Source: Sutcliffiella sp. FSL R7-0096 (GTDB lineage: Bacteria; Bacillota; Bacilli; Bacillales; Bacillaceae_I). Taken from it: DNA of 64,000 bases. Below are positions 9,606 through 58,963 of this stretch, piece by piece. The DNA is taken from contig NZ_CP152003.1 of assembly GCF_038595065.1 (NCBI RefSeq), positions 2,026,001 through 2,090,000 on the forward strand, in the 5' to 3' direction. A program made the translations under genes and the position numbers. How positions within the stretch are numbered: the stretch's first letter is position 1; each line of letters starts with the position of its first letter. The notes under the pieces were generated by a model. It was not told the origin of the DNA. It ran no database searches and was given only the letters and a program-made list of their open reading frames with translations.

Positions 9606-9716
9606 CGAAATATCACAATAACCCGTTAAAATATCACAATACCCTTTGAAAAAGTCACAATAACTACAGAAAAAGTCACAATCAGCCTCCGAAAAGTCAC
9701 AATCCAAGTATTTAAG
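9606..9716 (+). repeat. Five-copy array of TCACAAT with an exact 21-bp period
   Basis: TCACAAT begins at 9613, 9634, 9655, 9676 and 9697, i.e. exactly every 21 bp, preceded in later units by AAAAG; the bases between are variable. It lies in the 580-bp ftsZ-spoIIGA gap (where B. subtilis has bpr). A minus-strand frame gives a degenerate heptad CDFxxxx, but with no convincing start signal it is not called as a gene. Confidence 0.85.
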
Positions 9717-9776
9717 CTTTATGAGGTAAATGGTAGTGCAAGAACTAAAATCCAATATTCCCCCTGTCCTGTTCTC

Positions 9777-9863
9777 TCCGACAAATAAGCAAAAAAATCT
9801 TCAAAAATTGTATTCTACTATCGGCAGGAACTGACAGACTTTCTACTAGCAGTGATTTATACT
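9777..9863 (+). promoter_or_regulatory. Probable spoIIG promoter with long spacer and a Spo0A-box-like site
   Basis: CTGACA (9831-9836) and TATACT (9858-9863) are 21 bp apart. The B. subtilis spoIIG promoter is known for an unusually long (22 bp) spacer and activation by Spo0A~P. TCCGACA at 9777-9783 is the reverse of a Spo0A box with one mismatch. The position directly before spoIIGA supports it. Confidence 0.5.
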
Positions 9864-9900
9864 AGTTTCAAATCTATAAGGTATAAATGAGGGACTTATT

Positions 9901-10830
9901 GTGACCGTATATTTAGATGCAATCTGGCTATTGAATTTCGGCTTTGATTTTCTGCTTTTAAAGATAACCGGTCTCATCCTGAAGCGACAGATTGTAACAT
10001 GGAGGCTATTACTCGGAGCATTCATCGGTTCATTAATTGTAGTTCTCATGTTCACCCCAGCGCAGGTTCTTGTTGCAAATCCTTTTGTGAAAATGCTCAT
10101 CTCCCTTACCATTATCCTTGCAGCTTTCGGCTTTCACAGATTAAGGACCTTTGTAGAAAACCTTACTGTTTTTTATGTAACCACCTTTGCAGTTGGAGGG
10201 GGCATGCTTGCTGTTCACTATGCATTACAAGTGGATCAGCGTTTTGCAAACGAAACCATCCAAAGCCTTACAAGTGGACTTGGAGATCCGGTTTCATGGG
10301 TTTTTGTCCTGGTTGGTTTCCCGGTTCTTTTGTACCTATCTAAGAAGCAATTTCATGCAGTGGAAACAAGAAAATTTAAATATGATCAATTGGCCACCAT
10401 TACCATTACAATCGAAAAGGATGTGATCTCATTATCGGGCTTACTGGATAGTGGGAACCAGCTTTTAGACCCCATTACCAAGACTCCTGTCATGATTGTG
10501 GAAGTGGCAGCTCTTCAAACCTTCATCCCAGACGAAATCATACAAGCTATGGACTCTATTGAACAAACACAAGGTTGGCCAACTTTTTCAGATGAAACCA
10601 GGTGGGTCGAGAGAATTAGAATCATTCCATACCGGGCAGTCGGAAAAGAAACAACTATAATGCTGGCAATTAAACCGGATAAGGCAGTCATTCACCATGA
10701 TAATATGCGCTATGAAACAAGTAAATTCCTATTGGGACTCACTAAAACACAGCTATCCTCAGAAGGAGACTACGTGTGTATTCTTCACCCTAAAATGTTA
10801 CAGGGAGAAGTGGTGGAACAGGTTTCATAA
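9901..10830 (+). CDS. spoIIGA: Pro-SigE processing protease SpoIIGA
   Basis: Membrane-embedded aspartic protease that cleaves pro-SigE in the mother cell after activation by SpoIIR from the forespore. 309 aa: about five hydrophobic segments in the N-terminal half (1-140) and a soluble C-terminal domain with the aspartic-protease motif SGLLDSGNQLLDP (about 179-191). GTG 9901 is preceded by GAGGGAC. The sigE gene follows after 215 bp, a spoIIG operon as in B. subtilis. Confidence 0.95.
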   Translation: MTVYLDAIWLLNFGFDFLLLKITGLILKRQIVTWRLLLGAFIGSLIVVLMFTPAQVLVANPFVKMLISLTIILAAFGFHRLRTFVENLTVFYVTTFAVGGGMLAVHYALQVDQRFANETIQSLTSGLGDPVSWVFVLVGFPVLLYLSKKQFHAVETRKFKYDQLATITITIEKDVISLSGLLDSGNQLLDPITKTPVMIVEVAALQTFIPDEIIQAMDSIEQTQGWPTFSDETRWVERIRIIPYRAVGKETTIMLAIKPDKAVIHHDNMRYETSKFLLGLTKTQLSSEGDYVCILHPKMLQGEVVEQVS

Positions 10831-10960
10831 AGAAAGGCTGTTTTCGTATTCTTTGTTGCTTTTTCGTATATTCAAATCATCCGTTATATTGCTTACTGTC
10901 GTGCTCTTTTCCTTGTTGTGCTAAGAATACTACTTGCAAAATCAAGAGTATGTAAGAAAC

Positions 10961-10984
10961 AAAAAGTCCAATAGCCGACTTTTT
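10961..10984 (+). terminator. Weak hairpin between spoIIGA and sigE
   Basis: AAAAAGTC (10961-10968) and GACTTTTT (10977-10984) form an 8-bp mostly A-U stem with an 8-nt loop. It might attenuate read-through into sigE, but the stem is weak and no T run follows it. Confidence 0.3.
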
Positions 10985-11045
10985 GCTTGTGAATAGCAAC
11001 AAACTTTGAGAAAAGAGCCTAAAGAAAATAAAAGGAGGAATTATT

Positions 11046-11765
11046 TTGGGGAAGCTAAAAATAAAAGTCACCTATTTATGGTACAAATTATTAATCAAGC
11101 TGGGATTAAAGACAGATGAAATTTATTATATAGGTGGGAGTGAAGCGCTGCCACCACCTTTGTCAAAGGAAGAGGAAGCACATTTGCTTATAAAGTTGCC
11201 AAATGGAGATCAAGCTGCAAGGTCCATCCTTATCGAAAGAAATCTCAGACTTGTCGTCTATATAGCAAGAAAGTTTGAGAATACCGGAATCAATATTGAG
11301 GATCTAATTAGTATAGGTACAATCGGACTTATTAAAGCTGTTAACACATTTAATCCAGAGAAAAAGATTAAATTGGCTACGTACGCCTCAAGATGTATTG
11401 AGAACGAGATTTTGATGTACTTAAGGAGAAACAATAAGGTTCGTTCGGAAGTCTCTTTTGACGAACCTTTGAATATTGACTGGGACGGCAACGAATTGCT
11501 GTTGTCAGATGTTCTTGGTACGGATGAGGATATCATTACAAAAGATTTGGAGGCAAACGTAGATCGAAAACTTCTGTTAAAAGCCCTTGAACAACTGAAT
11601 GACAGGGAGAAGCAGATTATGGAACTCCGTTTCGGCCTCATCGGTGGAGAAGAAAAAACGCAAAAGGATGTAGCGGATATGTTAGGTATATCGCAATCAT
11701 ACATATCCAGATTAGAAAAACGGATCATTAAAAGACTAAGAAAAGAATTCAATAAAATGGTATAA
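11046..11765 (+). CDS. sigE: RNA polymerase sigma-E factor (pro-sigma-E), mother cell early
   Basis: Sporulation sigma factor of the mother cell, made as an inactive precursor. 239 aa, identical in length to B. subtilis SigE and very similar throughout. The N-terminal pro-sequence (about residues 1-28, ending in the DEIYYIGG region) is present. Region 2 includes [16 protein letters not shown] and [14 protein letters not shown], and region 4 has the helix-turn-helix [25 protein letters not shown] 11046 is preceded by AAAGGAGG. Confidence 0.98.
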
Positions 11766-11838
11766 AAATTTTTAGAGCAATTTTTTCAGTAATGATAAGG
11801 ATTGAGAATATTTGTCAGAATAGATAGATTTCTGGATA

Positions 11839-11868
11839 TGCATATTTTTCCCTCCTGAGGAGATACTT
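11839..11868 (+). promoter_or_regulatory. SigF-type promoter for sigG
   Basis: TGCATA (11839-11844), 14 nt, then GGAGATACTT (11859-11868), which fits the forespore SigF -10 consensus GGnnAnAnTT at every fixed position. sigG is known to be transcribed by SigF in B. subtilis. Confidence 0.7.
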
Positions 11869-11883
11869 AACTCTGAACAGCAA

Positions 11884-11899
11884 CTCCTGTTAGGAGGGG
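11884..11899 (+). promoter_or_regulatory. Hairpin that covers the sigG ribosome-binding site
   Basis: CTCCT (11884-11888), loop GTT, AGGAG (11892-11896); the 3' arm is the Shine-Dalgarno sequence AGGAGGGG, 5 nt before the ATG. A small leader hairpin over the ribosome-binding site is also described for B. subtilis sigG, where it lowers translation. Confidence 0.55.
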
Positions 11900-11904
11900 A
11901 AAGA

Positions 11905-12684
11905 ATGACACGTAATAAGGTTGAAATTTGCGGAGTGGACACTTCAAAACTTCCTGTTCTTAAAAATGAAGAAATGCGGAAGTTATTTCGTGAAATGCAA
12001 AGTGGTGAACTCTCCGCTCGAGAAAAGCTTGTGAATGGGAATTTGAGGCTTGTATTAAGTGTTATTCAACGGTTTAATAACCGTGGAGAATTTGTTGATG
12101 ACTTATTTCAAGTAGGATGTATTGGATTGATGAAATCCATTGATAACTTTGATTTAGGTCAAAATGTAAAGTTTTCTACATATGCAGTGCCGATGATCAT
12201 CGGGGAAATCAGACGTTATTTACGTGACAATAACCCGATAAGAGTATCGAGGTCGTTGCGTGATATTGCCTACAAAGCGCTGCAAGTGAGAGAAAGATTG
12301 ATGAGTGAAACATCCAGGGAGCCGACAGCCGAAGAAATTTCAAAAGTGTTGGAAGTGCCACATGAAGAAATCGTTTTCGCGCTTGACGCCATTCAGGATC
12401 CTGTCTCACTTTTTGAACCGATCTATAACGATGGTGGAGATCCCATCTATGTATTGGATCAAATCAGTGATGAGAAGAATAAAGATATCCAGTGGATAGA
12501 AGAAATCGCTTTAAAAGAAGGAATGAGGCGATTGAATGACAGGGAAAAGCTCATTTTGAGAAAGCGGTTCTTTCAAGGAAAAACACAGATGGAAGTTGCT
12601 GATGAAATCGGAATTTCGCAAGCTCAAGTATCTCGCCTTGAAAAGGCGGCAATCAAGCAGATGAATAAAAATATCCAAAGCTAA
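11905..12684 (+). CDS. sigG: RNA polymerase sigma-G factor, forespore late
   Basis: Late forespore sigma factor controlling germination and spore-protection genes. 259 aa, close to B. subtilis SigG over the whole length. The N-terminal VEICGVDTSKLPVLKNEEM segment, which carries the SpoIIAB/CsfB interaction surface, is present. Region 2 contains VLSVIQRFNNRGEFVDDLFQ, region 3 ISRSLRD-like VSRSLRDIAYKALQ, and region 4 the helix-turn-helix TQMEVADEIGISQAQVSR. It has its own SigF-type promoter and a terminator. B. subtilis has ylmA after it; that gene is not here. Confidence 0.98.
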   Translation: MTRNKVEICGVDTSKLPVLKNEEMRKLFREMQSGELSAREKLVNGNLRLVLSVIQRFNNRGEFVDDLFQVGCIGLMKSIDNFDLGQNVKFSTYAVPMIIGEIRRYLRDNNPIRVSRSLRDIAYKALQVRERLMSETSREPTAEEISKVLEVPHEEIVFALDAIQDPVSLFEPIYNDGGDPIYVLDQISDEKNKDIQWIEEIALKEGMRRLNDREKLILRKRFFQGKTQMEVADEIGISQAQVSRLEKAAIKQMNKNIQS

Positions 12685-12704
12685 ACCAGGATAATATAAA
12701 GAAA

Positions 12705-12744
12705 AGAACCAGTATCCAAAATGGGAAACTGGTTCTTTTTTTGG
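12705..12744 (+). terminator. Intrinsic terminator after sigG
   Basis: AGAACCAGT (12705-12713) pairs with ACTGGTTCT (12728-12736), followed by a long T run. Confidence 0.9.
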
Positions 12745-12778
12745 GACGAGTAATAACTATTTAGTTGATAAAGATACC

Positions 12779-12860
12779 TTGTTGATTGTAGTGGAAGGCG
12801 AGCAGACATTACCAGACACTAGCAGGCAAGCGAAGCGTCTGGAACGAAAATCAACAATTG
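12779..12860 (+). repeat. Dispersed non-coding repeat, degenerate copy C
   Basis: Starts TTGTTGATTGTAG and ends AAAATCAACAA, keeping the inverted ends of the family; the middle is shortened and diverged, with only AAGCGAAGCGTCTGGAACG-like pieces left. It lies between the sigG terminator and ylmC. Confidence 0.65.
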
Positions 12861-12918
12861 AAAGTAACCTACAGATTAATGAAACTATTTTATTTTCCCT
12901 TCATGAAGAAGCAGTCAA

Positions 12919-12942
12919 CTATCATATAGTTTAATATGATAG
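12919..12942 (+). promoter_or_regulatory. Perfect 9-bp inverted repeat before ylmC
   Basis: CTATCATAT (12919-12927) and ATATGATAG (12934-12942) are exact reverse complements around a 6-nt loop, directly upstream of the ylmC ribosome-binding site. It could be a protein operator or a leader hairpin; the sequence does not decide. Confidence 0.5.
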
Positions 12943-12961
12943 ATAAAATGGGGGAATGGCA

Positions 12962-13222
12962 ATGGTGAAAATATCCGATTTCCAGATGAAAGATGTTGTC
13001 AGTGTGTCAGATGGGAAGAAGCTTGGAAATATTGGTGATATCGACATTAACTTAACCAATGGCAAAATCGAGGCCATTATCATTACAGGCGGGGGAAAAA
13101 TGCTTGGTTTTTTTGGAAAGGATGAGGAAGTAGTCATTCCATGGCGTAATATTGTTAAAATTGGTGCAGATGTGATACTTGTTCGTTATCAAACGAAGGT
13201 GGAAACCGCCTACGAGGAATAA
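12962..13222 (+). CDS. ylmC: PRC-barrel domain protein YlmC/YmxH family (sporulation)
   Basis: Small PRC-barrel protein of 86 aa; the YlmC/YmxH family is linked to sporulation but has no known biochemical role. The sequence is one barrel: KISDFQMKDVVSVSDGKKLGNIGDIDIN at the start, the GKIEAIIITGG turn, then the IPWRNIVKIGADVILV end. Start choice: ATG 12962 lies 8 nt from GGGGG; ATG 12956 is too close to it and GTG 12965 is also possible. Confidence 0.87.
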   Translation: MVKISDFQMKDVVSVSDGKKLGNIGDIDINLTNGKIEAIIITGGGKMLGFFGKDEEVVIPWRNIVKIGADVILVRYQTKVETAYEE

Positions 13223-13277
13223 AACGCGAAAAAAGCTGTCGAATCATACAATATAATTCAATGTTAGTAGAAAAATG

Positions 13278-13286
13278 TGGTACAAT
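13278..13286 (+). promoter_or_regulatory. Candidate extended -10 promoter for the ylmD gene group
   Basis: TGG followed by TACAAT (13281-13286) is an extended -10 element 42 bp before the ylmD start; the -35 is weak. It could drive ylmD-ylmE-sepF-ylmG. Confidence 0.4.
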
Positions 13287-13327
13287 ATGAAGGAATATCA
13301 GCGTAACCAATAAAGAAGGTGTCGACT

Positions 13328-14158
13328 ATGACAGAGCCATTTGTTCTGGAAAATGAACAAACATTGTCCCTCCATACATGGAAGAAGCATAAACCTAACT
13401 TGGTTGTCGGCTTTACCACCAAAAACGGAGGAGTCAGTGAAGGACATTTTAATACACTGAATATGGGTTTGCATGTAAAAGATTCTCAAGATGCAGTATG
13501 TCAGAACAAAGAGACTGTAGCTGAATTACTGAATATGCCCACCGAAAATTGGGTGGGCTGTGACCAAACCCATGAAGATAATATTGTAAAAGTAGATGAG
13601 TCATATAAAGGCAAAGGGGTATATTCATATGATACCGCATTGCCAGGAACGGATGGCATCTACACAGACAGAGCGGACATATTGCTTACTCTTTGCTTTG
13701 CTGATTGTGTACCATTGTATTTTTTTGCTCCTGATCATGCCATCGTAGGAATTGCACACGCAGGTTGGAAAGGTACAGTGAAAAATATTGCAGGGAAGAT
13801 GATCAAGTCCTTGATACTGGAAGGGATAAATGACGATTCTATATTTGTGGCAATTGGGCCTTCCATTTCTGCAGAAGCCTATGTGGTGGATCACTTTGTT
13901 GTAAATAAGGTGAAAAATGCACTTCCAACTATCGATCCGGACAACTTCATGAAGGAAGTGTCCGAGGGGCAGTTTGAATTAGATTTAAAAAGAGTAAATT
14001 ATGAACTTCTCTTGCAGGCAGGGGTCAAAGACGAAAACATACTTTGCAGTTCTTTTTGTACAAGCAGGGAGGATTCTTTATTCTTTTCCCATCGACGTGA
14101 TAAAGGCAATACTGGAAGAATGATGAGCTTCATCGGCTTGAAAGGGGCGAATGGATAA
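13328..14158 (+). CDS. ylmD: YlmD/YfiH (DUF152, multicopper-polyphenol-oxidase-like) protein
   Basis: Member of the YfiH/LACC1 family, whose bacterial members have been shown to act as purine nucleoside enzymes with a metal-binding Cys/His site. 276 aa from ATG 13328, with AAGAAGGTG at 6 nt; GTG 13319 overlaps that site. Metal-site motifs are present: DQTHEDNI (about 75-82), LLTLCFADCVPLYFF (about 118-132), IAHAGWKGT (about 142-150) and ENILCSSFCTSREDSLFFSHRRD near the end. It overlaps ylmE by one base, indicating translational coupling. Confidence 0.92.
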   Translation: MTEPFVLENEQTLSLHTWKKHKPNLVVGFTTKNGGVSEGHFNTLNMGLHVKDSQDAVCQNKETVAELLNMPTENWVGCDQTHEDNIVKVDESYKGKGVYSYDTALPGTDGIYTDRADILLTLCFADCVPLYFFAPDHAIVGIAHAGWKGTVKNIAGKMIKSLILEGINDDSIFVAIGPSISAEAYVVDHFVVNKVKNALPTIDPDNFMKEVSEGQFELDLKRVNYELLLQAGVKDENILCSSFCTSREDSLFFSHRRDKGNTGRMMSFIGLKGANG

Positions 14159-14847
14159 TGAGCATTCTGGATTCGGTTGAAAATAATCTGGAAAAGATTC
14201 AAAAAAACATTCGTGATGTCTGTGAAAATGTCGGTCGTTCCCCTGAGGAAATAAATATCATTGCAGTTACTAAGTACGTATCAGTTGACAGGGCGAAAGA
14301 AGCTGTAGAGTCCGGGGTCCATCACCTTGGTGAAAATAGGGACGATGGATTACGGGAGAAATGGAATGTGCTTTCCAATAAAGCAACCTGGCATTTTATC
14401 GGGACATTGCAATCCAAAAAAGTAAAGAAAATTATTGATAAAGTGGATTATATCCATTCCTTAGATCGCGAATCACTCGCGGAAGAGATACATAAACGTA
14501 CAGAAAAACCCGTAAAATGTTTTATGCAAGTGAATGTTTCAGCGGAGGACTCCAAGCATGGATTGCCCAAGGAAGAAGCCTTAGGATTTGTCGAAAAACT
14601 AGGGAATTATCCTAATATCCACGTGGTTGGATTAATGACGATGGCCCCTTACACCGACGATGAAGCAGAGATAAGAAATTGCTTTCGTGAGTTAAAAGCA
14701 CTGCAAGTTCAAGTCCAAGAACTGAATCTTCCATATGCACCATGTCAAGAATTGTCCATGGGAATGTCCAACGACTATAGAATAGCGATTGAAGAAGGTG
14801 CCACCTTTATCCGAATTGGAAGTGCGCTTGTTGGAAACGAACAATAA
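14158..14847 (+). CDS. ylmE: Pyridoxal phosphate homeostasis protein (YggS/YlmE family)
   Basis: PLP-binding protein with an alanine-racemase-like TIM barrel but no racemase activity; the family helps keep PLP levels in balance. 229 aa, normal. Motifs: IAVTKYVSVDRAKEAVESG with the PLP lysine (about residue 38), HHLGENRDDGLREKW, HFIGTLQSKKVK, and the signature LSMGMSNDYRIAIEEGATFIRIGSALVG. It sits between ylmD and sepF, a conserved grouping next to division genes. Confidence 0.95.
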   Translation: MSILDSVENNLEKIQKNIRDVCENVGRSPEEINIIAVTKYVSVDRAKEAVESGVHHLGENRDDGLREKWNVLSNKATWHFIGTLQSKKVKKIIDKVDYIHSLDRESLAEEIHKRTEKPVKCFMQVNVSAEDSKHGLPKEEALGFVEKLGNYPNIHVVGLMTMAPYTDDEAEIRNCFRELKALQVQVQELNLPYAPCQELSMGMSNDYRIAIEEGATFIRIGSALVGNEQ

Positions 14848-14863
14848 AGTGGAGGTGTAAAGA

Positions 14864-17109: not shown

Positions 17110-17380
17110 ATACAGAATAGAAAGCGTTGATAGGGACAGTAGTTCCTCTTATCACTTATTGGAGCGAGTCGGGGACGGTGGAAGCCCGGTATAAGAAGAG
17201 GAATGAATATCACCCTAGAGCACCGGACTGAAGGCTTGATAGCTTGTAAGTTCAGTCGTCACATTCACGTTACGAATGCTAAAGTGGATCGGATACTGCC
17301 TCAAACAGTCTGGTCAATTTAGGGTGGTACCACGGGAGATCCTCTCGTCCCTTTTTTGGGACGAGGGGATTTTTTTATTT
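17110..17380 (+). ncRNA. T-box riboswitch (isoleucine) controlling ileS
   Basis: Leader RNA that senses uncharged tRNA-Ile. Stem I has the GATAGGGACAGTAG start; the specifier region GAATATCACC offers the Ile codon ATC at 17209-17211. The T-box sequence AGGGTGGTACCACGG is at 17321-17335, with TGGT (17325-17328) able to pair with the ACCA end of the tRNA. The terminator pairs 17339-17351 with 17358-17370 and is followed by a T run. The specifier codon agrees with the ileS gene downstream. Confidence 0.95.
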
Positions 17381-20690: not shown

Positions 20691-21274
20691 GTATGGAACC
20701 ACTAGCACTACAAAAAAGAGCAGTTCAGTCGTCATAGAGGGTGTATGGAACCACCAGGAACACAAAAAATAGAAGTTCAGTCGCCATAGAGGGTGTATGG
20801 AACCACCAGAAACACAAAAAATAGAAGTTCAGTCGTCATAGAGGGTGTATGGAACCACCAGGAACACAAAAAATAGAAGTTCAGTCGCCATAGAGGGTGT
20901 ATGGAACCACCAGAAACACAAAAAAGAAAAGTTCAGTCGTCATAGAGGGTGTATGGAACCACCAGGAACACAAAAAATAGAAGTTCAGTCGCCATAGAGG
21001 GTGTATGGAACCACCAGAAACACAAAAAAGAAAAGTTCAGTCGTCATAGAGGGTGTATGGAACCACCAGGAACACAAAAAATAGAAGCTCAGTCGTCAAA
21101 GAGGGTGTATGGAACCACCAGAAACACAAAAAAGAGCAGTTCAGTCGTCATAGAGGGGGGATGGAACCACCAGGAACACAAAAAAGAGCAGTTCAGTCGC
21201 CATAGAGGGTGTATGGAACCACCAGAAATACAAAAAATAGAAGTTCAGTCGTCATAGAGGATGTATGGAACCAC
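20691..21274 (+). repeat. 52-bp tandem repeat (minisatellite), 11 full units
   Basis: The block GTATGGAACCACCAG starts at 20691 and recurs every 52 bp through 21211 (the 21159 unit reads GGATGG), with a partial twelfth unit at 21263. Each unit continues AACACAAAAAA, AGTTCAGTCG and CATAGAGGGT. Units alternate between CAGGAACAC and CAGAAACAC from the second to the eleventh, so the array grew as 104-bp dimers. 52 is not a multiple of 3, and frames through it switch peptide each unit, so it is not treated as coding. It fills the ileS-lspA gap where B. subtilis has ylyA. A fragment CTGTTGATTTCCGGAGCG near 20604 looks like an inverted end of the dispersed repeat. Confidence 0.95.
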
Positions 21275-22841: not shown

Positions 22842-22860
22842 CATTACAGTTGAATAAGAC

Positions 22861-22986
22861 CTTTAAACGACAGTCCCGTGAGGCTGAGAAGGTAACGGCA
22901 TATGCGAATGGAGAAGCTATATTTATAGCCACCCCTCTATTTTCATGTACAAAAACCTCTCATCATTCGGTGAGAGGTTTTTTGTT
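22861..22986 (+). promoter_or_regulatory. PyrR-dependent attenuator 1 (pyrR leader)
   Basis: The PyrR-binding anti-antiterminator loop CAGTCCCGTGAGGCTGAGAA (22871-22890) sits in a stem with CCTTT-type and AAGG arms. The terminator AAACCTCTCA (22953-22962) / TGAGAGGTTT (22971-22980) with a T run follows. PyrR with UMP favours the terminator in this family. Confidence 0.9.
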
Positions 22987-23001
22987 TCTCGTTATAGGTA
23001 A

Positions 23002-34715: not shown

Positions 34716-34857
34716 GTTGAATGAGATTTGGAACGTTTCCCCTCTGGGCCGGGTGGTCTGGGGGGGATATTTTGGTTGCTTGGTAATTTGGAGGGAGGTG
34801 CTGAAGTGAAGGGATCATTAATTGCCGAATTTTAAATTATGTTGTTGAAGAGCGAGG

Positions 34858-35431
34858 TGGTAGAAGAGGTGAGTGAAGTGGTAGAAGTATGTTTTGAAGT
34901 TGTAGAAGTGGAGCCGGAAAAGGTAGAAGGCCGCCATTAAGGTGTAGAAGATGGAGATTAAGTTGTAGAACAGTTAGTTTGCCTGGGCGTTCGGAAACAT
35001 GGAATCTCTCCATTTTGATTAACTGTTGATGTAGAACTAAGATCTAAATTACCCAATTTTAAAATTAGATAACTGGTGAGCCAGGTGGTAGAACATGCGA
35101 GTGAAGTGGTAGAAGTATGTTTTGAAGTTGTAGAAGGGAGGTCGGAAAAGGTAGAAGGCCGCCATTAAGGTGTAGAAGATGGAGCTTAAGTTGTAGAACG
35201 GTTAGTTTGCCTCGGCGTTCGGGTACATGGACCCACTCCAGTTTAATTTGTTACGATGTAGGTCTAAGATCCTAAATTACCCAATTTTAAAATTAGGTAA
35301 CTGAAGAGCCAGGTGGTAGAACATGCGAGTGAAGTGGTAGAAGTACGTAGTGAAGTGGTAGAAGTGGAGCCGGAAAAGGTAGAACGCCGGCATTAAGGTG
35401 TAGAAGATGGAGATTAAGTTGTAGAACGGAT
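34858..35431 (+). repeat. Triplicated 228-bp repeat, each carrying six GTAGAA motifs every 21 bp
   Basis: GTAGAA begins at 34860, 34881, 34902, 34923, 34944, 34965; again at 35088, 35109, 35130, 35151, 35172, 35193; and again at 35316, 35337, 35358, 35379, 35400, 35421. Spacing within a block is exactly 21 bp and blocks are offset by 228 bp. Between blocks lies an AT-rich near-palindrome (35049-35072 and 35277-35300, with arms like TTACCCAATTTT). On the minus strand some frames give FYxFxxx heptads, but plus-strand frames hold stops and no start signals exist. This fills most of the 889-bp pyrE-NERD gap. Confidence 0.92.
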
Positions 35432-35604
35432 AGCTGGACTGTGCGAAAGGAAATATAAAAATCATTATTTTCAATCAATCCCTTCCTCCAAAAGCAACCT
35501 TTTATCTTTATCGACCCCATCAAAATCCAATTTCATTAATCATGCAGGATTTATGGAGAAAAATGTCGTAATATGCAAGTGAGAAAAAAGAAAGGTGTGA
35601 TAGT

Positions 35605-53359: not shown

Positions 53360-54109
53360 ATGGTCTTTTTAACAGATAGAGGGAGAGTTCGTTCACATAA
53401 TGAAGACAATGGGGGAATTTTTGTTAATAAAGACGGCACAATGCTAGCAGTTGTTTGTGACGGCATGGGGGGCCATCAGGCAGGTGAAGTGGCAAGTGAA
53501 AGAGCTGTAAGCCACATCAAGGAAATGTGGGAGGAGACGATCAACATCTCTTCCCCTGAACCTGCCGAAATCTGGTTGAAGACGTTCATTCTCCAAACCA
53601 ATCAATCGCTTTTTGAACATGCTAATTCTCATGAAGAATGTCATGGTATGGGAACCACGATTGTAGCTGCTATTTTGGGGGATTCTTTTGTGACCCTTGC
53701 ACATGTGGGGGATAGCAGAATCTATCTAATTTCAGAAGAGGGTGCCAAGCAATTAACAGAAGATCATACATTTGTTAATGAACTTGTGAAAACTGGGCAG
53801 ATATCAAAAGAAGATGCAGAGCATCATCCTAGAAAAAATGTTATACTACAAGCTTTAGGGACAGAGAAAACAGTAAAGATTGATATAAAAACCATTACAT
53901 ATGATGACCCTGGATATGTTCTCCTTTGTTCAGATGGCTTGACTGATAAAGTCAATGACCGGGAGATAGTCGAGGTGTTGAACAATGGAAGCCAGGCTTT
54001 ATCTGCCAAGGCGGAGGAATTGATTAGACGCGCCAACCATTACGGTGGGGAAGATAATATCACGGTAGCCATTTTGGAATTATCTGTCTCCGAAGCTGGG
54101 AGTGGGTGA
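53360..54109 (+). CDS. prpC: PP2C-type protein phosphatase PrpC
   Basis: Metal-dependent Ser/Thr phosphatase that opposes PrkC. 249 aa from ATG 53360 (GAGGTGA at 9 nt; TTG 53354 is 3 nt away). PP2C motifs: TDRGRVRSHNEDN, VCDGMGGHQAGEVAS, GTTIVAAIL, LAHVGDSRIYL, LTEDHTFVNELVK and LLCSDGLTDKV, with DNITVAILE near the end carrying the metal-binding Asp residues. It directly precedes prkC with 5 bp between. Confidence 0.96.
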   Translation: MVFLTDRGRVRSHNEDNGGIFVNKDGTMLAVVCDGMGGHQAGEVASERAVSHIKEMWEETINISSPEPAEIWLKTFILQTNQSLFEHANSHEECHGMGTTIVAAILGDSFVTLAHVGDSRIYLISEEGAKQLTEDHTFVNELVKTGQISKEDAEHHPRKNVILQALGTEKTVKIDIKTITYDDPGYVLLCSDGLTDKVNDREIVEVLNNGSQALSAKAEELIRRANHYGGEDNITVAILELSVSEAGSG

Positions 54110-54114
54110 TATAG

Positions 54115-56094
54115 GTGTTAATAGGCAAAAGATTAAATGATCGCTATAAAATTTTGGAAGTCATCGGTGGCGGAGGAATGGCGAATGTTTACCTTGCCCA
54201 CGACATGATTTTGGACAGAGATGTTGCGGTCAAAGTATTACGATTAGATTTTGCAAACGATGAAGAATTTATTCGCCGCTTCAGAAGGGAAGCACAATCG
54301 GCAACAAGCCTGGACCACCCGAATATTGTCAGCATCTATGACATCGGGGAAGAAGACGACATCTACTACATCGTGATGGAACACGTCAAGGGAAAAACCC
54401 TAAAGCAATACATTCAACAATATGCTCCTGTGGAACAATATAATGCGGTAGAGATTATGAATCAGCTGACATCTGCCATTTCCCATGCCCATGAAAATGG
54501 TATTATCCATAGAGACATAAAGCCTCAAAATATTTTAATCGATGATTATGGGACCGTGAAAGTGACAGATTTCGGTATTGCAATGGCCCTTAGCTCTACT
54601 ACCATCACACAAACGAATTCACTTTTAGGCTCTGTTCACTATTTGTCACCTGAACAGGCAAGAGGGAGTTTGGCCACAAAGAAATCGGATGTATATGCAC
54701 TTGGAATCGTCCTGTTCGAATTATTGACCGGTCGACTTCCGTTCAGTGGCGAATCTGCCGTTTCCATCGCGTTAAAGCACCTTCAATCGGAAACACCATC
54801 TCCGAAAAGATGGAATCCGACTTTACCACAAAGTATGGAAAATATGGTATTGAAGGCCATGGCGAAGGATCCGCTTCATCGCTTTGCATCTGTAGATGAG
54901 ATGCAATCGGACCTCATGACGGCACTTGATCCAAGTCGCATGAATGAGCCTAAATTCATCATTCCGGATGATGATGATGATGAAGCAACAAAGGCAATTC
55001 CGATTATAAAAGGGAGTCTTGGAAACCTTACGAATGAAGAGGAAACAAGAATCCGACCACCAGAGGAAAAGCCAGTCAAAGAGGAAAAAGGATCACCGCC
55101 TCCGAAGCAGAAGAAAAAGAAGAGGAAAAAATGGGTAATCGCCCTTTTGGTTATTCTATTTCTCTTGATAGGTGGAGCGGTCGCGGCATTTACCGTCCTT
55201 CCATCCATGCTATTACCGAAAGACGTTACGGTTCCGGATCTGACCGATTATGAATATGACGATGCTGTCAAAGAGCTTATCGATCTTGGTTTTGTTCTAG
55301 AGGAACCAAAAGAGGAACCAAGCGATGAGATCGAAAAAGGAAAAGTCACCAGAACGTTCCCTAAAGCAGGGGATGTGGTGAAGGAAGGCAAAGCAATTAC
55401 CATCTTCAGGAGTCTTGGAAAAGAAGAAGTGGAGATGGAAGACTACACCGGCCTTTCTGTGGAAGAAGCGAGTCAAAGGATAAATGATAAGGACTTTAAG
55501 AGAGTTAACGTGGAGGAAGTCCACTCTGATGATGTTCCAGAGGGCAGGGTAATACGTCAGGAGCCTGAAGAGGGTACGATGGTCATTCCGGAAGAGACAG
55601 AAGTTAAACTTGTTGTTTCCATGGGATCAAGCCCTATCACTTTGGATAACTATCAAGGATCTTCCATCGATTTTGCTCAAAGACACCTTGCAGGGTTAGG
55701 TTTGGTTCCTGATATTTCCAATGAATATAATGATTCCGTTTCAGAAGGAAATATCATCAAGCAGGACCCTCCTCCGGAATCCCAAGTCCGAAGAGGGGAT
55801 ACAATAAAGCTTATTGTTTCAGACGGACCACAGCCAGAGGATAAAACAGTGGATATTCCATTGGAAGTGAAGTATGAACCCGAAGAAGAAGGGGCGGAAC
55901 AAACGGTTGAAGTTTATGTGGAGGATCTGAATACCACCATGGATGGTGAACCCAAAGAAACCTTCATCATCACGGAAGACATTATTGCTGGGTTTACTGT
56001 CACAGTCGCTTATAAGCAACAAGCTAAATATAAAATTGTAGTCGACGGGGAAGAAATCGAAAATGTTACCATCGATTATGACGATATAGAGTAA
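54115..56094 (+). CDS. prkC: Serine/threonine protein kinase PrkC with PASTA domains
   Basis: Membrane kinase sensing muropeptides; involved in germination and stationary phase in B. subtilis. 659 aa: the kinase domain (about 10-270) with the GGGGMANVY glycine loop, VAVKVLR lysine, IIHRDIKPQNILID catalytic loop and TDFGIA; a basic, lysine-rich juxtamembrane part; a membrane segment (about 340-362); three PASTA repeats (about 363-430, 431-500, 501-575); and a C-terminal beta-rich domain. GTG 54115. Paired with prpC and followed by rsgA, as in B. subtilis. Confidence 0.97.
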   Translation: MLIGKRLNDRYKILEVIGGGGMANVYLAHDMILDRDVAVKVLRLDFANDEEFIRRFRREAQSATSLDHPNIVSIYDIGEEDDIYYIVMEHVKGKTLKQYIQQYAPVEQYNAVEIMNQLTSAISHAHENGIIHRDIKPQNILIDDYGTVKVTDFGIAMALSSTTITQTNSLLGSVHYLSPEQARGSLATKKSDVYALGIVLFELLTGRLPFSGESAVSIALKHLQSETPSPKRWNPTLPQSMENMVLKAMAKDPLHRFASVDEMQSDLMTALDPSRMNEPKFIIPDDDDDEATKAIPIIKGSLGNLTNEEETRIRPPEEKPVKEEKGSPPPKQKKKKRKKWVIALLVILFLLIGGAVAAFTVLPSMLLPKDVTVPDLTDYEYDDAVKELIDLGFVLEEPKEEPSDEIEKGKVTRTFPKAGDVVKEGKAITIFRSLGKEEVEMEDYTGLSVEEASQRINDKDFKRVNVEEVHSDDVPEGRVIRQEPEEGTMVIPEETEVKLVVSMGSSPITLDNYQGSSIDFAQRHLAGLGLVPDISNEYNDSVSEGNIIKQDPPPESQVRRGDTIKLIVSDGPQPEDKTVDIPLEVKYEPEEEGAEQTVEVYVEDLNTTMDGEPKETFIITEDIIAGFTVTVAYKQQAKYKIVVDGEEIENVTIDYDDIE

Positions 56095-56113
56095 TCAACT
56101 AAGGAGTGAGTGT

Positions 56114-56992
56114 ATGCCAGAAGGCAAGATTGTCAAAGCATTGAGCGGTTTTTATTATGTTTTGACTACAGATGGCGATATAACCCAATGTAGAGGAAGA
56201 GGGGTTTTTCGAAAAAATAAGATTACCCCTCTTGTTGGGGACTCCGTTGTATTTCAAGCGGAAAACGACCAAGAAGGCTACATTATGGACGTATTGCCTC
56301 GCAAGAATGAGCTTGTAAGACCTCCGATAGCGAATATTGATCAGGCGATTCTTGTTTTTTCAGCGTTAGAGCCTGAATTTAGTACGGTTCTTTTGGATAG
56401 ATTCCTTGTGCTGATTGAATCTAAAGGTGTCAGTCCTTTGATTTGTATTTCCAAGATGGACCTTTTGGATGAAGATGCCAACCTGATGGGATATGCCGCA
56501 TATTACCGATCCATTGGTTACGAGGTGCTGCTGACTTCCACGAAGGAACCGGAGCAGTTGAAGGAGATACTGCCATACTTGAAAGAGAAGACATCGGTGA
56601 TAGCTGGTCAATCCGGTGTTGGTAAATCATCTTTACTTAACGTGTTACGCCCAGAGCTGGAATTGAAAACAGACAATATATCATCCCATTTAGGTAGGGG
56701 TAAGCATACGACAAGACATGTCGAGCTAATGGAAATCAACCATGGCTTTGTTGCGGATACTCCTGGCTTCAGTTCATTGGAATTCTTGGAGATGGAAGCC
56801 GAAGATGTGAAGGATTGTTTTCCTGAGTTCGTAGAAATAAGCCATAATTGCAAATTTCGAGGTTGTACTCACTTGAAAGAACCAAAATGCGCGGTTAAAG
56901 CAGCTGTTGAAAACGAAGACATTGCTTCCTACCGTTATAAACATTACGTTTCTTTCGTAGAAGAAATAAAAGATAGAAAGCCGAGGTACTAA
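56114..56992 (+). CDS. rsgA: Ribosome small-subunit maturation GTPase RsgA (CpgA)
   Basis: Circularly permuted GTPase acting in 30S assembly; in B. subtilis it is a target of PrkC. 292 aa: an N-terminal OB fold (about 1-65), then the permuted GTPase with G4-like SKMDLLD before the P-loop AGQSGVGKSSLLN (about 168-180), then DTPGFSS, and the zinc site HNCKFRGCTHLKEPKCAV (about 244-261). Confidence 0.97.
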   Translation: MPEGKIVKALSGFYYVLTTDGDITQCRGRGVFRKNKITPLVGDSVVFQAENDQEGYIMDVLPRKNELVRPPIANIDQAILVFSALEPEFSTVLLDRFLVLIESKGVSPLICISKMDLLDEDANLMGYAAYYRSIGYEVLLTSTKEPEQLKEILPYLKEKTSVIAGQSGVGKSSLLNVLRPELELKTDNISSHLGRGKHTTRHVELMEINHGFVADTPGFSSLEFLEMEAEDVKDCFPEFVEISHNCKFRGCTHLKEPKCAVKAAVENEDIASYRYKHYVSFVEEIKDRKPRY

Positions 56993-56995
56993 AAT

Positions 56996-57649
56996 ATGAT
57001 AAAAATCGCCCCTTCCATTCTGAGTGCTGATTTTGCCCACTTAGGAAAAGACATCCTTGATGTGGACCAAGGAGGAGCAGACTATATTCATATTGATGTG
57101 ATGGATGGGCATTTTGTGCCCAATATCACCATTGGTCCATTAATTGTGGAAGCCGTACGCCCAATTACAAAGCTTCCATTGGACGTGCACTTGATGATTG
57201 AGAATCCTGATGCGTATATCGTTGATTTTGCCAAAGCTGGAGCGGACATCATTTCTGTACACGTGGAGGCATGCCGCCATCTACACCGAACCATCCAGCA
57301 TATTAAAGCTCAAGGCGTGAAAGCTGGCGTGGTCATCAACCCAGCTACACCAGTAGAAAGCATCATCCCCATTTTGAATAATGTGGATTTAGTGCTTTTG
57401 ATGACAGTCAACCCCGGGTTTGGTGGTCAGGCTTTCATCCATGATGTACTTCCGAAAATCAAACAGGTTGCTTCCTTAGTGAGGGAAAGAGGATTATCCA
57501 TCGACATCGAAGTGGATGGAGGCGTCAATCCGGAAACAGCTAAATTATGTGTAGAAGCCGGTGCTAATGTTCTAGTTGCAGGTTCAGCCATTTACAATAA
57601 AGAAGATCGCAAGCAGGCAATCTCCTCCATCAGAAGCAATTTGTCATAA
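56996..57649 (+). CDS. rpe: Ribulose-phosphate 3-epimerase
   Basis: Pentose-phosphate pathway TIM-barrel epimerase. 217 aa. [14 protein letters not shown] at the start, [17 protein letters not shown] with the metal and catalytic Asp/His residues, [22 protein letters not shown] and the second catalytic Asp in [14 protein letters not shown] 56996, 3 bp after rsgA. Confidence 0.98.
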
Positions 57650-57703
57650 TTTCTTTATTAGTGATGCAAGCTAATGGTAAATGTGATGGGAGGACTTTGT
57701 GAT

Positions 57704-57883
57704 ATGAATATTTCGAAGGATGACCAGGCAATTCTTGAACAGGCATTGCATTCCGCATTGGCCAATAGCACGGATTATAATGAAATTGATATGTATGAAA
57801 AGCTGCTTAAGAAATTTTCAGCAGTGGAAAATAAAAGCTTGGACGGATTCCGTTATGACTATGACGACTCATCCAGCCTGTAA
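57704..57883 (+). CDS. Small acidic protein of unknown function
   Basis: 59 aa from ATG 57704, with GGGAGGA about 10 nt upstream, ending at a terminator 1 bp later. It has a predicted helical central part (DDQAILEQALHSALANSTDYNEIDM-like) and an acidic, tyrosine-rich tail (RYDYDDSSSL). No membrane segment, signal or cysteine. I do not recognise a family. It lies between rpe and thiN, which are adjacent in B. subtilis, so it is an addition there. The ribosome-binding site, terminator and codon pattern support a real gene. Confidence 0.65.
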   Translation: MNISKDDQAILEQALHSALANSTDYNEIDMYEKLLKKFSAVENKSLDGFRYDYDDSSSL

Positions 57884-57911
57884 AAAAGTCTTCGTCATGA
57901 AGGCTTTTTTA
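57882..57911 (+). terminator. Intrinsic terminator after the small unknown gene
   Basis: AAAAAGTCTTC and GAAGGCTTTTT pair (57883-57893 with 57899-57909) around a 5-nt loop, with one G-U pair, ending in a T run. Confidence 0.8.
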
Positions 57912-57949
57912 CGTTAAGCTGTTATAAAGAAGAAAAGGGAGAGAAGAAG

Positions 57950-58606
57950 TTGATTATACATATTGTTGCAGGAGGACCGAGAGACCGGATTCCGGATCTG
58001 CACCATTTACATACAGAAAATGTGATATGGGTGGGGGTGGATAGAGGAGTCGCCTACCTGTTAGAGCAGAATATCCAACCAGCAAAAGCTTTCGGAGACT
58101 TCGACTCGATTACTAGCCGAGAGCTACATGACATCAAAGAAAAGCTGCCACACGCAGAAGTTTATCCAAGCGAAAAAGATGAAACCGATACTGAAATTGC
58201 AGTCAATTGGGCGCTTGAACATGATCCAGAGCTCATCCGGATTTTTGGAGGAACAGGTGGCAGGTTAGATCATTTTCTAGGGAACCTTCAACTATTGTTA
58301 AAAGGGATCGAGAGACATACATTGATAGAAATACATGATATTCAAAATCAACTATATGCCCTTAAAGAAGGTACCTACTGTATAACGAAAGATAATTCAT
58401 TACCATTCGTTTCTTTCATGCCGATCACCCCTCATATTAAAGGCATCACGTTAAAGGGATTCAAATATCCTTTAGAAAAAAAGCATATTCGCTTTGGAGA
58501 CACACTATGTATTAGTAATGAACTTGAAGTGGAAAGTGGTACTTTTTCATTTGATGAAGGCATATTAATGGTGATAAGGAGCCGTGATTATCATTCATTA
58601 TCTTAA
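57950..58606 (+). CDS. thiN: Thiamine pyrophosphokinase
   Basis: Transfers pyrophosphate from ATP to thiamine to make TPP. 218 aa: the N-terminal catalytic domain with GVDRGVAYLLEQNIQPAKAFGDFDSI and EKDETDTEIAVNWAL, IFGGTGGRLDHFLGNL, and a C-terminal thiamine-binding beta domain (from about 135). TTG 57950 follows AGGGAGAG. Confidence 0.94.
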   Translation: MIIHIVAGGPRDRIPDLHHLHTENVIWVGVDRGVAYLLEQNIQPAKAFGDFDSITSRELHDIKEKLPHAEVYPSEKDETDTEIAVNWALEHDPELIRIFGGTGGRLDHFLGNLQLLLKGIERHTLIEIHDIQNQLYALKEGTYCITKDNSLPFVSFMPITPHIKGITLKGFKYPLEKKHIRFGDTLCISNELEVESGTFSFDEGILMVIRSRDYHSLS

Positions 58607-58677
58607 GACGGTCCCAGCGATCCGCTAATTTGCAACTTGATAAAATAAAAAGGTAAAAGTTCGGAGGAGGGAATGTA

Positions 58678-58758
58678 ATGAAATTTTATACAATCAAGCT
58701 ACCTAGATTCTTGGGGGGAATAATCCGGGCTATGCTTGGGTCGTTTAAGAAGGAGTAA
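58678..58758 (+). CDS. spoVM: Stage V sporulation protein M (SpoVM)
   Basis: 26-aa amphipathic peptide that binds convex forespore membrane and anchors the SpoIVA coat platform. The sequence MKFYTIKLPRFLGG... differs from B. subtilis SpoVM at only a few conservative positions (for example Lys to Arg near residue 10 and Arg/Asp to Lys/Glu at the tail). Pro9, important for curvature sensing, is kept. ATG 58678 follows GGAGGAGGG. A terminator follows at once. Confidence 0.97.
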   Translation: MKFYTIKLPRFLGGIIRAMLGSFKKE

Positions 58759-58759
58759 G

Positions 58760-58783
58760 GCACCTCGAAAGGGTGCTTTTTTT
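58760..58783 (+). terminator. Intrinsic terminator after spoVM
   Basis: GCACC (58760-58764) pairs with GGTGC (58772-58776) with flanking pairs, then seven T. Confidence 0.8.
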
Positions 58784-58830
58784 ATAAATGCAACTATGAA
58801 ATGTATCCCCTAGAGGCTTTGAGTAAGGTG

Positions 58831-58963
58831 AATGTCCGAACCGAATTTCCAAGCGTCCGAACGGCATACTATTCTTGTCCAAACATTCAAGTCTAATGTC
58901 CGACCACCCCTTAAAAATAGGAATCTAATTTCCGAACCCACAAGAACCATGTCTGAACCGTTT
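58831..58963 (+). repeat. Array of TCCGAAC-like motifs at about 21-bp spacing
   Basis: TCCGAAC at 58835 and 58856, TCCAAAC at 58878, TCCGACC at 58899, TCCGAAC at 58931 and TCTGAAC at 58952; intervals 21, 22, 21, 32 and 21 bp. It lies in the 359-bp gap between the converging genes spoVM and rpmB. Less regular than the two other 21-bp arrays. No gene is visible in it. Confidence 0.7.

Follow-up and report, generated by a model that had tools for sequence, protein, structure and literature searches.

The window analysed here, a stretch of 64,000 nucleotides from the genome of Sutcliffiella sp. FSL R7-0096, contains three arrays of short direct repeats in intergenic DNA, which the initial annotation described as repeating at 21 bp with unrelated cores. 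All three are real. The first (9613..9717, + strand) consists of five 21-bp units of the form TCACAAT-AAC-nnnn-GAAAAAG, in which every step is 21 bp (cores at 9613, 9634, 9655, 9676, and 9697). It is intergenic, located between the open reading frames 8096-9316 (+) and 9901-10830 (+), and no terminator-like hairpin was called there. Among 16 genomes of the genus, its orthologue is present in G013 and decaying in G004; in the other 13, the 420 bp ahead of the gene showed no array. The second stretch is a 228-bp tandem duplication (2.6 copies) of a complete GTAGAA element with six cores at 21 bp, giving three blocks on the + strand: 34860..34985 (core positions 34860-34965), 35088..35213 (35088-35193, the tandem duplicate of the first at a period of 228), and 35316..35441 (35316-35421), with a single stray core outside them at 35031. 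This multi-copy arrangement is seen at the locus in relatives too. A terminator-like hairpin (34738-34767) precedes the first block, while near-palindromes, checked for letters and place, precede the second (TACCCAATTTTAAAATTAGATA, 35050..35071, part of the GTAGAA element) and the third (TTACCCAATTTTAAAATTAGGTAA, 35277..35300). A similar palindrome stands ahead of the orthologous arrays in G001, G004, G007, G008, G009, G013, and G014, as well as ahead of some GTAGAA copies elsewhere in the same genome. The third array (58835..58972, + strand), with TCCGAAC and near-matches at 58835, 58856, 58878, 58899, 58931, and 58952, is a decayed copy of the TCC[G/A]AA family flanked by converging terminator-like hairpins (58757-58779 on the + strand, 59103-59071 on the - strand). 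It is not strictly 21-periodic, as its steps are 21, 22, 21, 32, and 21; these correspond to the second half of a 10-core plan that is preserved in the fuller orthologues of relatives (consensus steps 21 five times, then 22, 21, 32, 21). An Rfam search over the window returned T-box and PyrR only and left the arrays unmatched.

The proposed class of phased intergenic elements turned out to be wider than first noted, with about 60 arrays in the genome belonging to at least four core families (TCACAAT, GTAGAA, TCC[G/A]AA, and TGCCAAA). The cores are also less unrelated than described, as the main ones share the form NNN[C/G]AA together with a flanking A/T patch, the TCCAAA variant standing apart. 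Each unit holds a conserved word of 6-9 bp, a 6-7 bp word being followed by 14-15 less conserved bases to complete the 21-bp step, and the median difference between the first two spacers of an array is 5 to 9 positions in this genome. Steps of 21 bp account for 35/35 core-to-core intervals in the TCACAAT family, 70/80 in GTAGAA, 27/34 in TGCCAAA, and 132/200 in TCCGAA, where 12 further steps are 22 bp, 21 are 31/32 bp, and 10 are 10/11 bp. For the TCCGAA steps outside 20-22 bp, 48 of 54 deviate from a multiple of 10.5 by no more than 1 bp (22% expected), although the 31/32-bp intervals among them recur at the same place in related copies and are not independent. Steps of 42, 52/53, and 63/64 bp in this family mostly jump over a decayed core. 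The autocorrelation of the arrays has peaks at 10/11, 21, 31/32, and 42 bp and troughs at 16, 25-26, and 37 bp, and the arrays have the geometry of iterons, i.e., direct repeats on one helix face about two turns apart. In CRISPR arrays the repeats exceed 20 bp and the spacers are about as long, a layout that is absent here. Copies of an array, and species too, have unit order and spacing pattern in common. Arrays with fewer than two steps of 21 bp were left out of the autocorrelation, palindrome, flank, and placement analyses (GTAGAA 3429780; TGCCAAA 3380275, 3380907, and 4836569; TCCGAA 3005547, 3705160, and 4601882; likewise the window's decayed TCCGAA array, genome position 2084835), and similar array rows were dropped from the reading-frame and RNA-folding tests.

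A scan for triple in-register 6-mers (lags 9 to 60) covered 464 kb of this genome, made up of the window and 20 pieces of 20 kb taken at regular intervals. At lag 21 it returned 14 loci, three of them within one open frame of CAACAG repeats and the other 11 being arrays, and at lag 42 it returned 13. The remaining lags were multiples of 3 (those listed being enclosed by open stretches of 167 aa or more) plus lag 52, found at four non-coding loci. Below 61 bp, only 21 (with 42) and 52 thus had several non-coding arrays in the 464 kb, and 21 is not the sole non-coding period; the 52-bp arrays form a second, separate set that looks unrelated to the 21-bp one. A stricter five-row test gave 14 places at lag 21 (three of them CAACAG), and at the other lags between 13 and 32 only multiples of 3 and one match at lag 26, half of 52. 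When the spacing was left free (12-17 nt), all 26 TCACAAT triples in the whole genome lay at exactly 21+21, and the reversed-pattern control gave no match. The 21-bp arrays are not due to chance, as had been thought likely from the window, and the intergenic 21-bp excess extends genome-wide beyond the three arrays, in the company of the 52-bp period.

Three explanations had been offered for the common period, one being decayed heptapeptide-coding modules (7 codons = 21 bp). Besides 21 being a multiple of 3, this reading could draw on four of the 11 lag-21 array loci, which are enclosed in stop-to-stop stretches of 104-147 aa, and on frame +2 of TCACAAT, the sole frame with a deficit of its own (2 stops vs. 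5.7, sd 1.1, in column shuffles). In every family, however, each of the six frames contains stops, so that no frame is open across units, and their low number in TCCGAA applies to all six frames alike and singles out none. Steps of 22, 31, and 32 bp, which recur in intact copies, break the frame, and the conserved positions show no obvious codon pattern. Coding heptads were discarded on account of the stops and the frame-breaking steps, and we regard them as exceedingly improbable.

Arrays acting as transcribed RNA, with repeats that attract an RNA-binding protein or influence termination or decay, would suit their location mostly past gene 3′ ends and resemble the TAACTGA arrays of other phyla, for which the cited text proposes post-transcriptional action (PMC4679880). 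Two of the three window arrays, however, lie beyond a terminator-like hairpin, array strand is mixed relative to flanking genes, and phasing at 10.5 bp would be meaningless in single-stranded RNA. In addition, RNA folding against shuffles showed no structure on either strand in any of the four families (mean z between -0.73 and +0.70), for which reason a structured RNA was dropped. An RNA-level role as a whole appears improbable.

Predicted curvature was compared with that of column-permuted, equally 21-periodic controls using a wedge model, the input being the longest 21-bp run in 9, 16, 24, and 8 arrays. The curvature predicted for the four families of this genome was reached by fractions of 0.013, 0.020, 0.003, and 0.030 of the controls, and is thus above 97% of them. 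In G008, of the same genus, 0.07 of the controls reach the predicted curvature of the arrays, and the excess is weak outside the genus (0.39 in G164, 0.18 in G016, and 0.15 in G145, with 1-2 arrays each); core chains for these other genomes were present in 9 of 20 fetched loci. Curved tracts phased at 10.5 bp, beyond what period and composition give, are therefore predicted in this genome and partly elsewhere.

Arrays were also found in relatives, in line with the conservation expected of such a class. Orthologous loci were located via flanking genes and not via cores. Divergence was 0.051 in cores vs. 0.199 in spacers for GTAGAA, 0.083 vs. 0.156 for TCACAAT, and 0.101 (core positions 0-5) vs. 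0.191-0.214 for TCCGAA. Whole cores thus evolve at one half to one quarter of the spacer rate, the difference being about twofold for two families out of three; the four most fixed TCCGAA positions, CC.AA, reach 0.026 (8-fold), but were chosen after the profile had been seen. If three chance matches outside the array are included, the count for the spoVM gap is only 0.186 vs. 0.244. The comparison covered 7 spoVM, 7 GTAGAA, and 3 TCACAAT species. Sites without an array were excluded from it, as were the decayed spoVM copy of the window and the copies that are deleted in G014 or reduced to a remnant in G003. The GTAGAA set also omits G000, G002, and G003, the latter two for drifted cores, and including these two would lower GTAGAA core conservation. 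Cores do drift: the first position of TCCGAA is A instead of T in many species, and GTAGAA has become NNAGAA in G002 and G003. Arrays are gained and lost between species as well, the TCACAAT window locus being present in 3/16 genomes.

Another possibility is neutral tandem duplication with concerted evolution, in which exchange of units keeps the cores alike and curvature is a by-product. It agrees with orthologues differing in unit number by multiples of 21, with what looks like the loss of DNA between similar units in G014, with the merely twofold whole-core conservation of two families, and with the presence of 52-bp arrays as another long period. It accounts less well for spacers that stay unit-specific between species while the cores are more fixed still, for one period common to several core families, for predicted curvature above equally periodic controls, and for new cores one turn off (10/11 bp), which are not 21-bp unit duplications. 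Unit exchange may be a partial source of core identity, but as the full explanation we consider it hardly probable.

Among 50 gaps with arrays, 14 are convergent, 34 co-directional, and 2 divergent, vs. 24 divergent gaps among 131 array-free ones (p 0.016). The smallest distance from an array to a start codon is about 40 bp and most are at least 70 bp, based on our own ORF calls. The flanks are strand-asymmetric, being G/T-rich before the array and A/C-rich after it, while array-free gaps are near neutral; in samples from other genera the skew is mixed. A long inverted repeat was rejected as its source, since only 3 of 59 arrays had a left-right match with z > 3 (none in 56), and homologous flanks between copies were rejected too (pairs had a mean z of 0.07-0.90, and 0 to 11% of them exceeded 3). 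The Chi-like motif AGCGG occurs in the flanks of the 59 arrays 11 (+) and 8 (-) times on the left and 2 (+) and 7 (-) times on the right. The asymmetry could be the mutational footprint of recurrent single-stranded DNA, as a replication, repair, or recombination process generating arrays in 21-nt steps might leave. This second of the suggested explanations did not hold up and seems very improbable, as steps of one and three turns exist too, and unit order and spacing are common to copies and species instead of being made anew.

Across the order, TGTCCGAA-type matches (overlapping triples with mismatches, some near-identical tandem repeats such as that of G314 included) were counted in 52 of 397 genomes and 27 of 135 genera, with at least 5 matches in 30 genomes and a control maximum of 3; spacer diversity was assessed for part of the 52 genomes. 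A contig scan yielded at least 116 stretches, 9 of which had a mean spacer difference of at least 6 at the first match, among them a TTGTCCGAA type in Halobacillus locisalis. In 100-kb samples, a less strict test found 18 matches at lag 21, spread over 5 of 8 genomes, and 10 at the other lags, although a single 104-bp tandem region in G017 accounts for 8 of the 18 and another, in G015, may be coding; no lag-21 match was found by this test in G005, G021, and 13 kb of G035. Among viral sequences the three patterns had 13, 44, and 13 loci, of which 64/70 are within open stretches of 80 aa or longer; at six loci the first two spacers differ by no fewer than 5 positions. A phage origin was dropped given these open stretches and a median difference of 0 between the first two spacers; a cut-off of 7 differences is too coarse here, with 69/70 viral loci but also 25 to 82% of own-genome pairs (by family) below it. 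A plasmid origin was likewise dropped for two array-bearing queries: GTAGAA had no match and TCCGAA four marginal ones (E 0.04-0.5) covering 5-8% of the query.

These observations bear on selfish dispersed repeats (REPIN- or MITE-like), whose cores would bind a trans-acting transposase or mobiliser with no host use. Dispersed paralogous copies with a common unit order, patchy orthologous sites including a seemingly clean empty one in G001 (spoVM locus), the patchy distribution over genera of the order, and a placement where insertions are tolerated all speak for them. Yet nearly all arrays lack a left-right inverted repeat and flanks are not clearly homologous between copies, cores are conserved at orthologous sites, four core families have the same period, plasmid signs are few for the two array queries, and viral spacers do not show the diversity seen here. 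We consider this explanation rather unlikely.

No description of such arrays came up in the literature covered. In their abstracts, REP and BIME elements bind proteins and have hypothesised roles in supercoiling and termination (PMC2817692, PMC3733652); like them, the arrays are dispersed, short, extragenic, and present in many intergenic copies with regularly spaced units. REPs are 20-40 bp palindromes, alternating in orientation in BIMEs, whereas the arrays are non-palindromic 6-9 bp direct repeats two turns apart, with several words per genome; no imperfect-palindrome hairpin is predicted for their units, and only some GTAGAA copies have a separate palindrome ahead. The TAACTGA heptamers of Beggiatoaceae, cyanobacteria, and Bacteroidetes (MacGregor 2015, PMC4679880) are similar as many short intergenic sets of a directly repeated 7-bp word without known binder, but the cited text describes one word, split at most by 1-2 related 7-bp words, mostly just before start codons. 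In the arrays, each 21 bp contains the word once, the spacers vary, a genome has several words, and the position is mostly past 3′ ends; neither successive 7-bp words without free spacers nor a site a few bases upstream of start codons was seen. BldC operators, as far as the cited text goes, have a variable number of direct repeats bound cooperatively head-to-tail with DNA bending (PMC5859096); the variable number is shared, binding and bending are only proposed for the arrays, and the 9-bp BldC subunit site at promoters differs from a 21-bp step with divergent gaps under-represented. Intrinsic curvature fixes supercoil position in curvature-pinned plectonemes, reported in the cited part upstream of promoters (PMC6301789), whereas in the arrays the predicted curvature accompanies a conserved word and is found mostly in intergenic DNA past 3′ ends.

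Plasmid iterons and ParR/parC centromere arrays are direct repeats spaced about two turns that are bound cooperatively and wrapped into a superhelix; they occupy one replication or partition locus, while the present arrays lie at dozens of chromosomal sites. Spacing in multiples of 10.5 bp, slowly evolving cores, predicted curvature, and the lack of RNA folding and in-frame coding favour a DNA-level element, so that a DNA-binding array phased on two turns fits best among the three suggestions. On balance, and with slightly better than even confidence, we read the arrays as intergenic protein-binding elements on DNA whose curvature is modelled and whose binder is putative, a direct-repeat counterpart of REP/BIME. 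In each, a short recognition word would be repeated about 3 to 12 times on one helix face, normally two turns (21 bp) and sometimes one (10/11) or three (31/32) apart. Spacers would be freer to change provided that A/T- and G/C-rich patches keep the helical phase, and the whole 60 to 220 bp would thereby be intrinsically curved, as computed by the model. One protein, or a paralogue per core family, may bind the words cooperatively along the curved side, so that the DNA between transcription units would be wrapped or bent in a nucleoprotein patch, most likely a supercoil anchor or block, or an insulator of neighbours, as proposed for REP/BIME.

More speculatively, Bacillales might possess an undescribed family of nucleoprotein anchor sites, i.e., phased, curved direct-repeat arrays whose word coevolves with a DNA-binding protein specific to it. 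A genome would have several such pairs of word and protein, each favouring a chromosome region (GTAGAA towards the terminus, TCC[G/A]AA towards the origin), and the 52-bp (five-turn) arrays would be a second class. The arrays would serve to insulate topologically or to mark chromosome domains, and each would be surrounded by a local, strand-asymmetric footprint of mutation; this wider picture is tentative and we would not expect it to hold in full. The 52-bp arrays count against the reading as curved protein-binding elements in that 21 bp is not the only long period of intergenic repeats.

That a genome has dozens of sites, whose words persist from species to species although the DNA between them changes, suggests a protein and a function for which no description came up, and the spore-forming bacteria of this group may carry, in many intergenic regions, a little-known class of putative protein sites on curved DNA with a small word every 21 bp. 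If the arrays bind protein in this way, they would allow topological or insulating points to be read off Bacillales chromosomes, and would be a natural case of several recognition words in one fixed geometry, with recognition separable from helical phasing. They may also explain some short repetitive ORFs annotated in such gaps. With regard to replication, TGCCAAA arrays oppose the fork in 11 of 12 cases in this genome; among the arrays listed for G010, many TGCCAAA arrays near the origin run with the fork, opposite to what is seen here.

The initial annotation had described three arrays with unrelated cores that share a 21-bp period, and their positions were confirmed (TCACAAT at 9613–9717, GTAGAA in three blocks at 34860–35441, and TCCGAAC, a decayed copy of the TCCGAA family, at 58835–58972), but a strict period did not hold in all of them: the TCACAAT array is strictly 21-periodic, the GTAGAA array is 21-periodic inside each of its three duplicated blocks, and the third array proceeds by steps of 21, 22, 21, 32, and 21. 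The DNA read comprised about 15% of one genome plus samples from eight others, and the lag scan covered the window together with 20 further stretches of 20 kb, spaced regularly along the same chromosome (464 kb in total). The proposed class of 21-bp phased intergenic elements gained support beyond the three window arrays, with in-register 6-mer triples found at 14 loci at lag 21 (11 arrays and three loci in one CAACAG-repeat open frame) and at 13 loci at lag 42. The remaining lags between 9 and 60 with matches were 52 and multiples of three, the latter lying, where listed, within open stretches that were 167–531 aa long. Lag 52 also has four non-coding loci, each in a different stretch, so non-coding DNA in these 464 kb has two such periods, 21 and 52, rather than 21 alone. 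A stricter five-row test (lags 13–32) returned lag 21 in 14 places, three of them CAACAG, and otherwise only multiples of three and one place at lag 26.

In the whole genome (4,908,118 bp), TCACAAT triples searched with the spacing left free gave 26 matches, 21 + 21 in every one, followed by 52 for GTAGAA triples at 21, 103 for TCCGAA triples and 27 for TGCCAAA triples (≤ 2 mismatches for the last two), while the reversed-pattern control gave 0 matches for each of the four core searches. The TGCCAAA family came from the lag scan and was absent from the initial annotation. As matches are overlapping triples, the number of arrays in the genome is lower, at ~60. The unit consensus is TCACAATAACnnnnGAAAAAG for the TCACAAT family, GTAGAAG, a variable part and AAA for GTAGAA, TCC[G/A]AAG with a T-rich stretch, a variable part and TTG for TCCGAA, and TGCC[A/G]AAA, a variable part and GAGTTC[G/A] for TGCCAAA.

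Cores were chained over 64 islands of this genome (729,259 bases), whose loci had mostly been fetched by fixed 21-bp-step patterns, the exceptions being TCACAAT and the lag-scan sample. TCACAAT formed 9 arrays with steps of 21 in 35/35, and the 17 GTAGAA and 11 TGCCAAA chains, which include chance or coding chains removed later, had them in 70/80 and 27/34, respectively. The 30 TCCGAA chains contained 200 steps, of which 132 were at 21, 12 at 22, 21 at 31/32, and 10 at 10/11. Among the TCCGAA steps outside 20–22, 48/54 were ≤ 1 bp from a multiple of 10.5 (22% expected for arbitrary lengths), with the reservation that steps are partly non-independent, since related copies have the 31/32 step in a shared position, and that those of 42, 52/53, and 63/64 mostly represent a skipped decayed core. 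Several chains carry additional cores one turn away, and the autocorrelation within arrays peaks near 10.5, 21, 31.5, and 42. An ordered plan is common to the TCCGAA copies (about 21 × 4–6, 22/21, 32, 21) and is also present in three compared genomes (G008, G009, G013); most copies have AAATG or GAATG at the start and an A/T-rich tail at the end. GTAGAA copies at some loci have an A/T palindrome in front.

Orthologous gaps were located via flanking genes in 16 genomes of the genus, so that the sample was selected independently of the cores. Arrays of the proposed class also occur in relatives, with orthologous arrays or remnants at all three window gaps: in 3/16 genomes at the TCACAAT gap, in 10/10 genomes with a matching flanking gene at the GTAGAA gap (cores drifted in G002 and G003), and in 10/16 at the gap between what we take, from protein sequence and gene order, to be spoVM and rpmB. 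Orthologues differ in unit number by whole 21-bp units. Pairwise divergence was 0.051 in the core vs. 0.199 in the spacer for GTAGAA (7 species) and 0.083 vs. 0.156 for TCACAAT (3 species). For TCCGAA (7 species) it was 0.101 over the whole core (positions 0–5), 0.050 at positions 1–5 and 0.026 at the four most fixed positions (CC.AA), compared with 0.191 at all other unit positions and 0.214 at positions 7–17; the first core position (T or A) alone reached 0.36. A cruder first count at the spoVM-rpmB gap had given 0.186 for the core vs. 0.244 for the spacer. At this gap (stretches L316–L331), the cores are mostly ACCGAA in G004, G007, G009, G012, and G013, with TCCGAA in unit 1; the T to A replacement in most units is a near-concerted change of one base.

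Neighbouring genes were taken from our own simple ORF calls, in which small, probably spurious ORFs lie over many arrays. The 50 clean cases comprised 14 convergent, 34 co-directional, and 2 divergent pairs, divergent gaps being rarer than among array-free gaps ≥ 250 bp (2/50 vs. 24/131, Fisher p = 0.016). In the window, the GTAGAA blocks are located behind a terminator-like hairpin and the TCCGAA array is flanked by two converging ones; no such hairpin was called at the TCACAAT array. With base 1 taken to lie close to the origin, the median array position as a fraction of the ori-ter distance was 0.64 for GTAGAA and 0.20 for TCCGAA (p = 0.002), a bias of the former to the terminus half and of the latter to the origin half. 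G001 and G014 have a similar GTAGAA trend, at loci partly orthologous to those of this genome. TGCCAAA arrays are opposed to the replication fork in 11/12 cases here; their listing in G010 looks different. In all four families the flanks (about 150 bp per side, 59 arrays of this genome) are G/T-rich before the array and A/C-rich after it, with GC skew > 0 on the left in 49/59 and < 0 on the right in 51/59. Across gene arrangements the skew ranged from +0.18 to +0.46 on the left and from −0.27 to −0.44 on the right, array-free gaps being close to neutral (−0.06 to +0.11). This symmetric skew would fit deamination of 3′-ended single strands or convergent transcription.

Decayed heptapeptide-coding modules, one of the origins initially suggested, were not supported, as every family has stops in each of its six frames. 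TCACAAT frame +2 contains 2 stops vs. 5.7 (sd 1.1) in column shuffles; TCCGAA stops are below their shuffles to a like degree in all six frames, which singles out none of them. RNA structure was rejected, with predicted folding at shuffle level on either strand, and so was a viral origin: 64/70 viral matches lie within open stretches and are mostly near-identical repeats (median difference between the first two spacers 0, vs. 5–9 in this genome). A plasmid search with two queries gave no convincing match. Curvature was predicted with a dinucleotide wedge model and was ~3× the median of array-free intergenic DNA. Because periodicity itself raises the curvature of any 21-periodic DNA, permutation of the 21 columns (300 controls) was used as a fair control, and for the four families of this genome, fractions of 0.013, 0.020, 0.003, and 0.030 of the controls reached the predicted curvature of the real arrays (combined p = 2.5e−5); the predicted excess is weak in other genera.

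Taken together, the fixed helical geometry, the presence of several words, the conservation of the cores, and the predicted curvature suggest that these intergenic arrays are bent DNA to which protein binds cooperatively along one face. By behaviour, the nearest analogues include iteron and centromere arrays as well as REP/BIME elements (PMC2817692, PMC3733652) and BldC operators (PMC5859096). By analogy with curvature-pinned plectonemes (PMC6301789), pinning of supercoils suggests itself as a possible physical role. The arrays lack defining features of REPs, TAACTGA repeats (PMC4679880), and CRISPR, and are therefore not classed with them. The listed titles and abstract openings of openly available papers contained no account of such arrays, which does not establish their absence in print.

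TCACAAT arrays were present in 10/16 genomes of the genus and in 0/45 searched outside it, TGCCAAA arrays in 13/16 and 0/9, and GTAGAA arrays in 10/16 and in G025 (41 genomes searched). Triples of TGTCCGAA (≤ 3 mismatches) occurred in 52/397 genomes and 27/135 genera of the order, with at least 5 matches in thirty genomes and a control maximum of 3 per genome. Among the matches listed, 21-bp TCCGAA arrays had diverse spacers in Halobacillus locisalis and more uniform ones in Bacillus litorisediminis, Bacillaceae Marseille-Q3522, one Lysinibacillus, and one Sporolactobacillus. Samples of other genera contained 21-bp arrays with different words, e.g., ATTTGGACAG (G040) and a TACAC word (G016). 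The matches listed also included TCCGAA 21-bp arrays with diverse spacers on two contigs (L115, L147) of the Verrucomicrobia MAG AM4_bin-735, which may share the geometry without being related.

The four non-coding 52-bp tandem arrays of the lag scan (window 20691–21274; fetched stretches L031 7814–8349, L043 12589–12884, and L049 from 6945) have a period of about five helical turns and may represent a second class of intergenic arrays. Two have related units and two unrelated ones (the best identity over all rotations was 0.60 in one pair and 0.37–0.48 in the others), and the units of L031, L043, and L049 hold short inverted repeats (GACAATCT..AGATTGTC, GAGGTC..GACCTC). In two stretches orthologous to window 9317–9900 (L294 of G007, L298 of G001), repeated GTCCTCAT..ATGAAG words replace the TCACAAT array and resemble the L043 and L049 units. 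A tandem unit of ~104 bp, about twice 52, containing 21-bp-phased words was observed in a genome of the same family (G017, L350 10153–11257). Further features in the window were a T-box leader (17118–17355) and a PyrR binding site (22856–22987).
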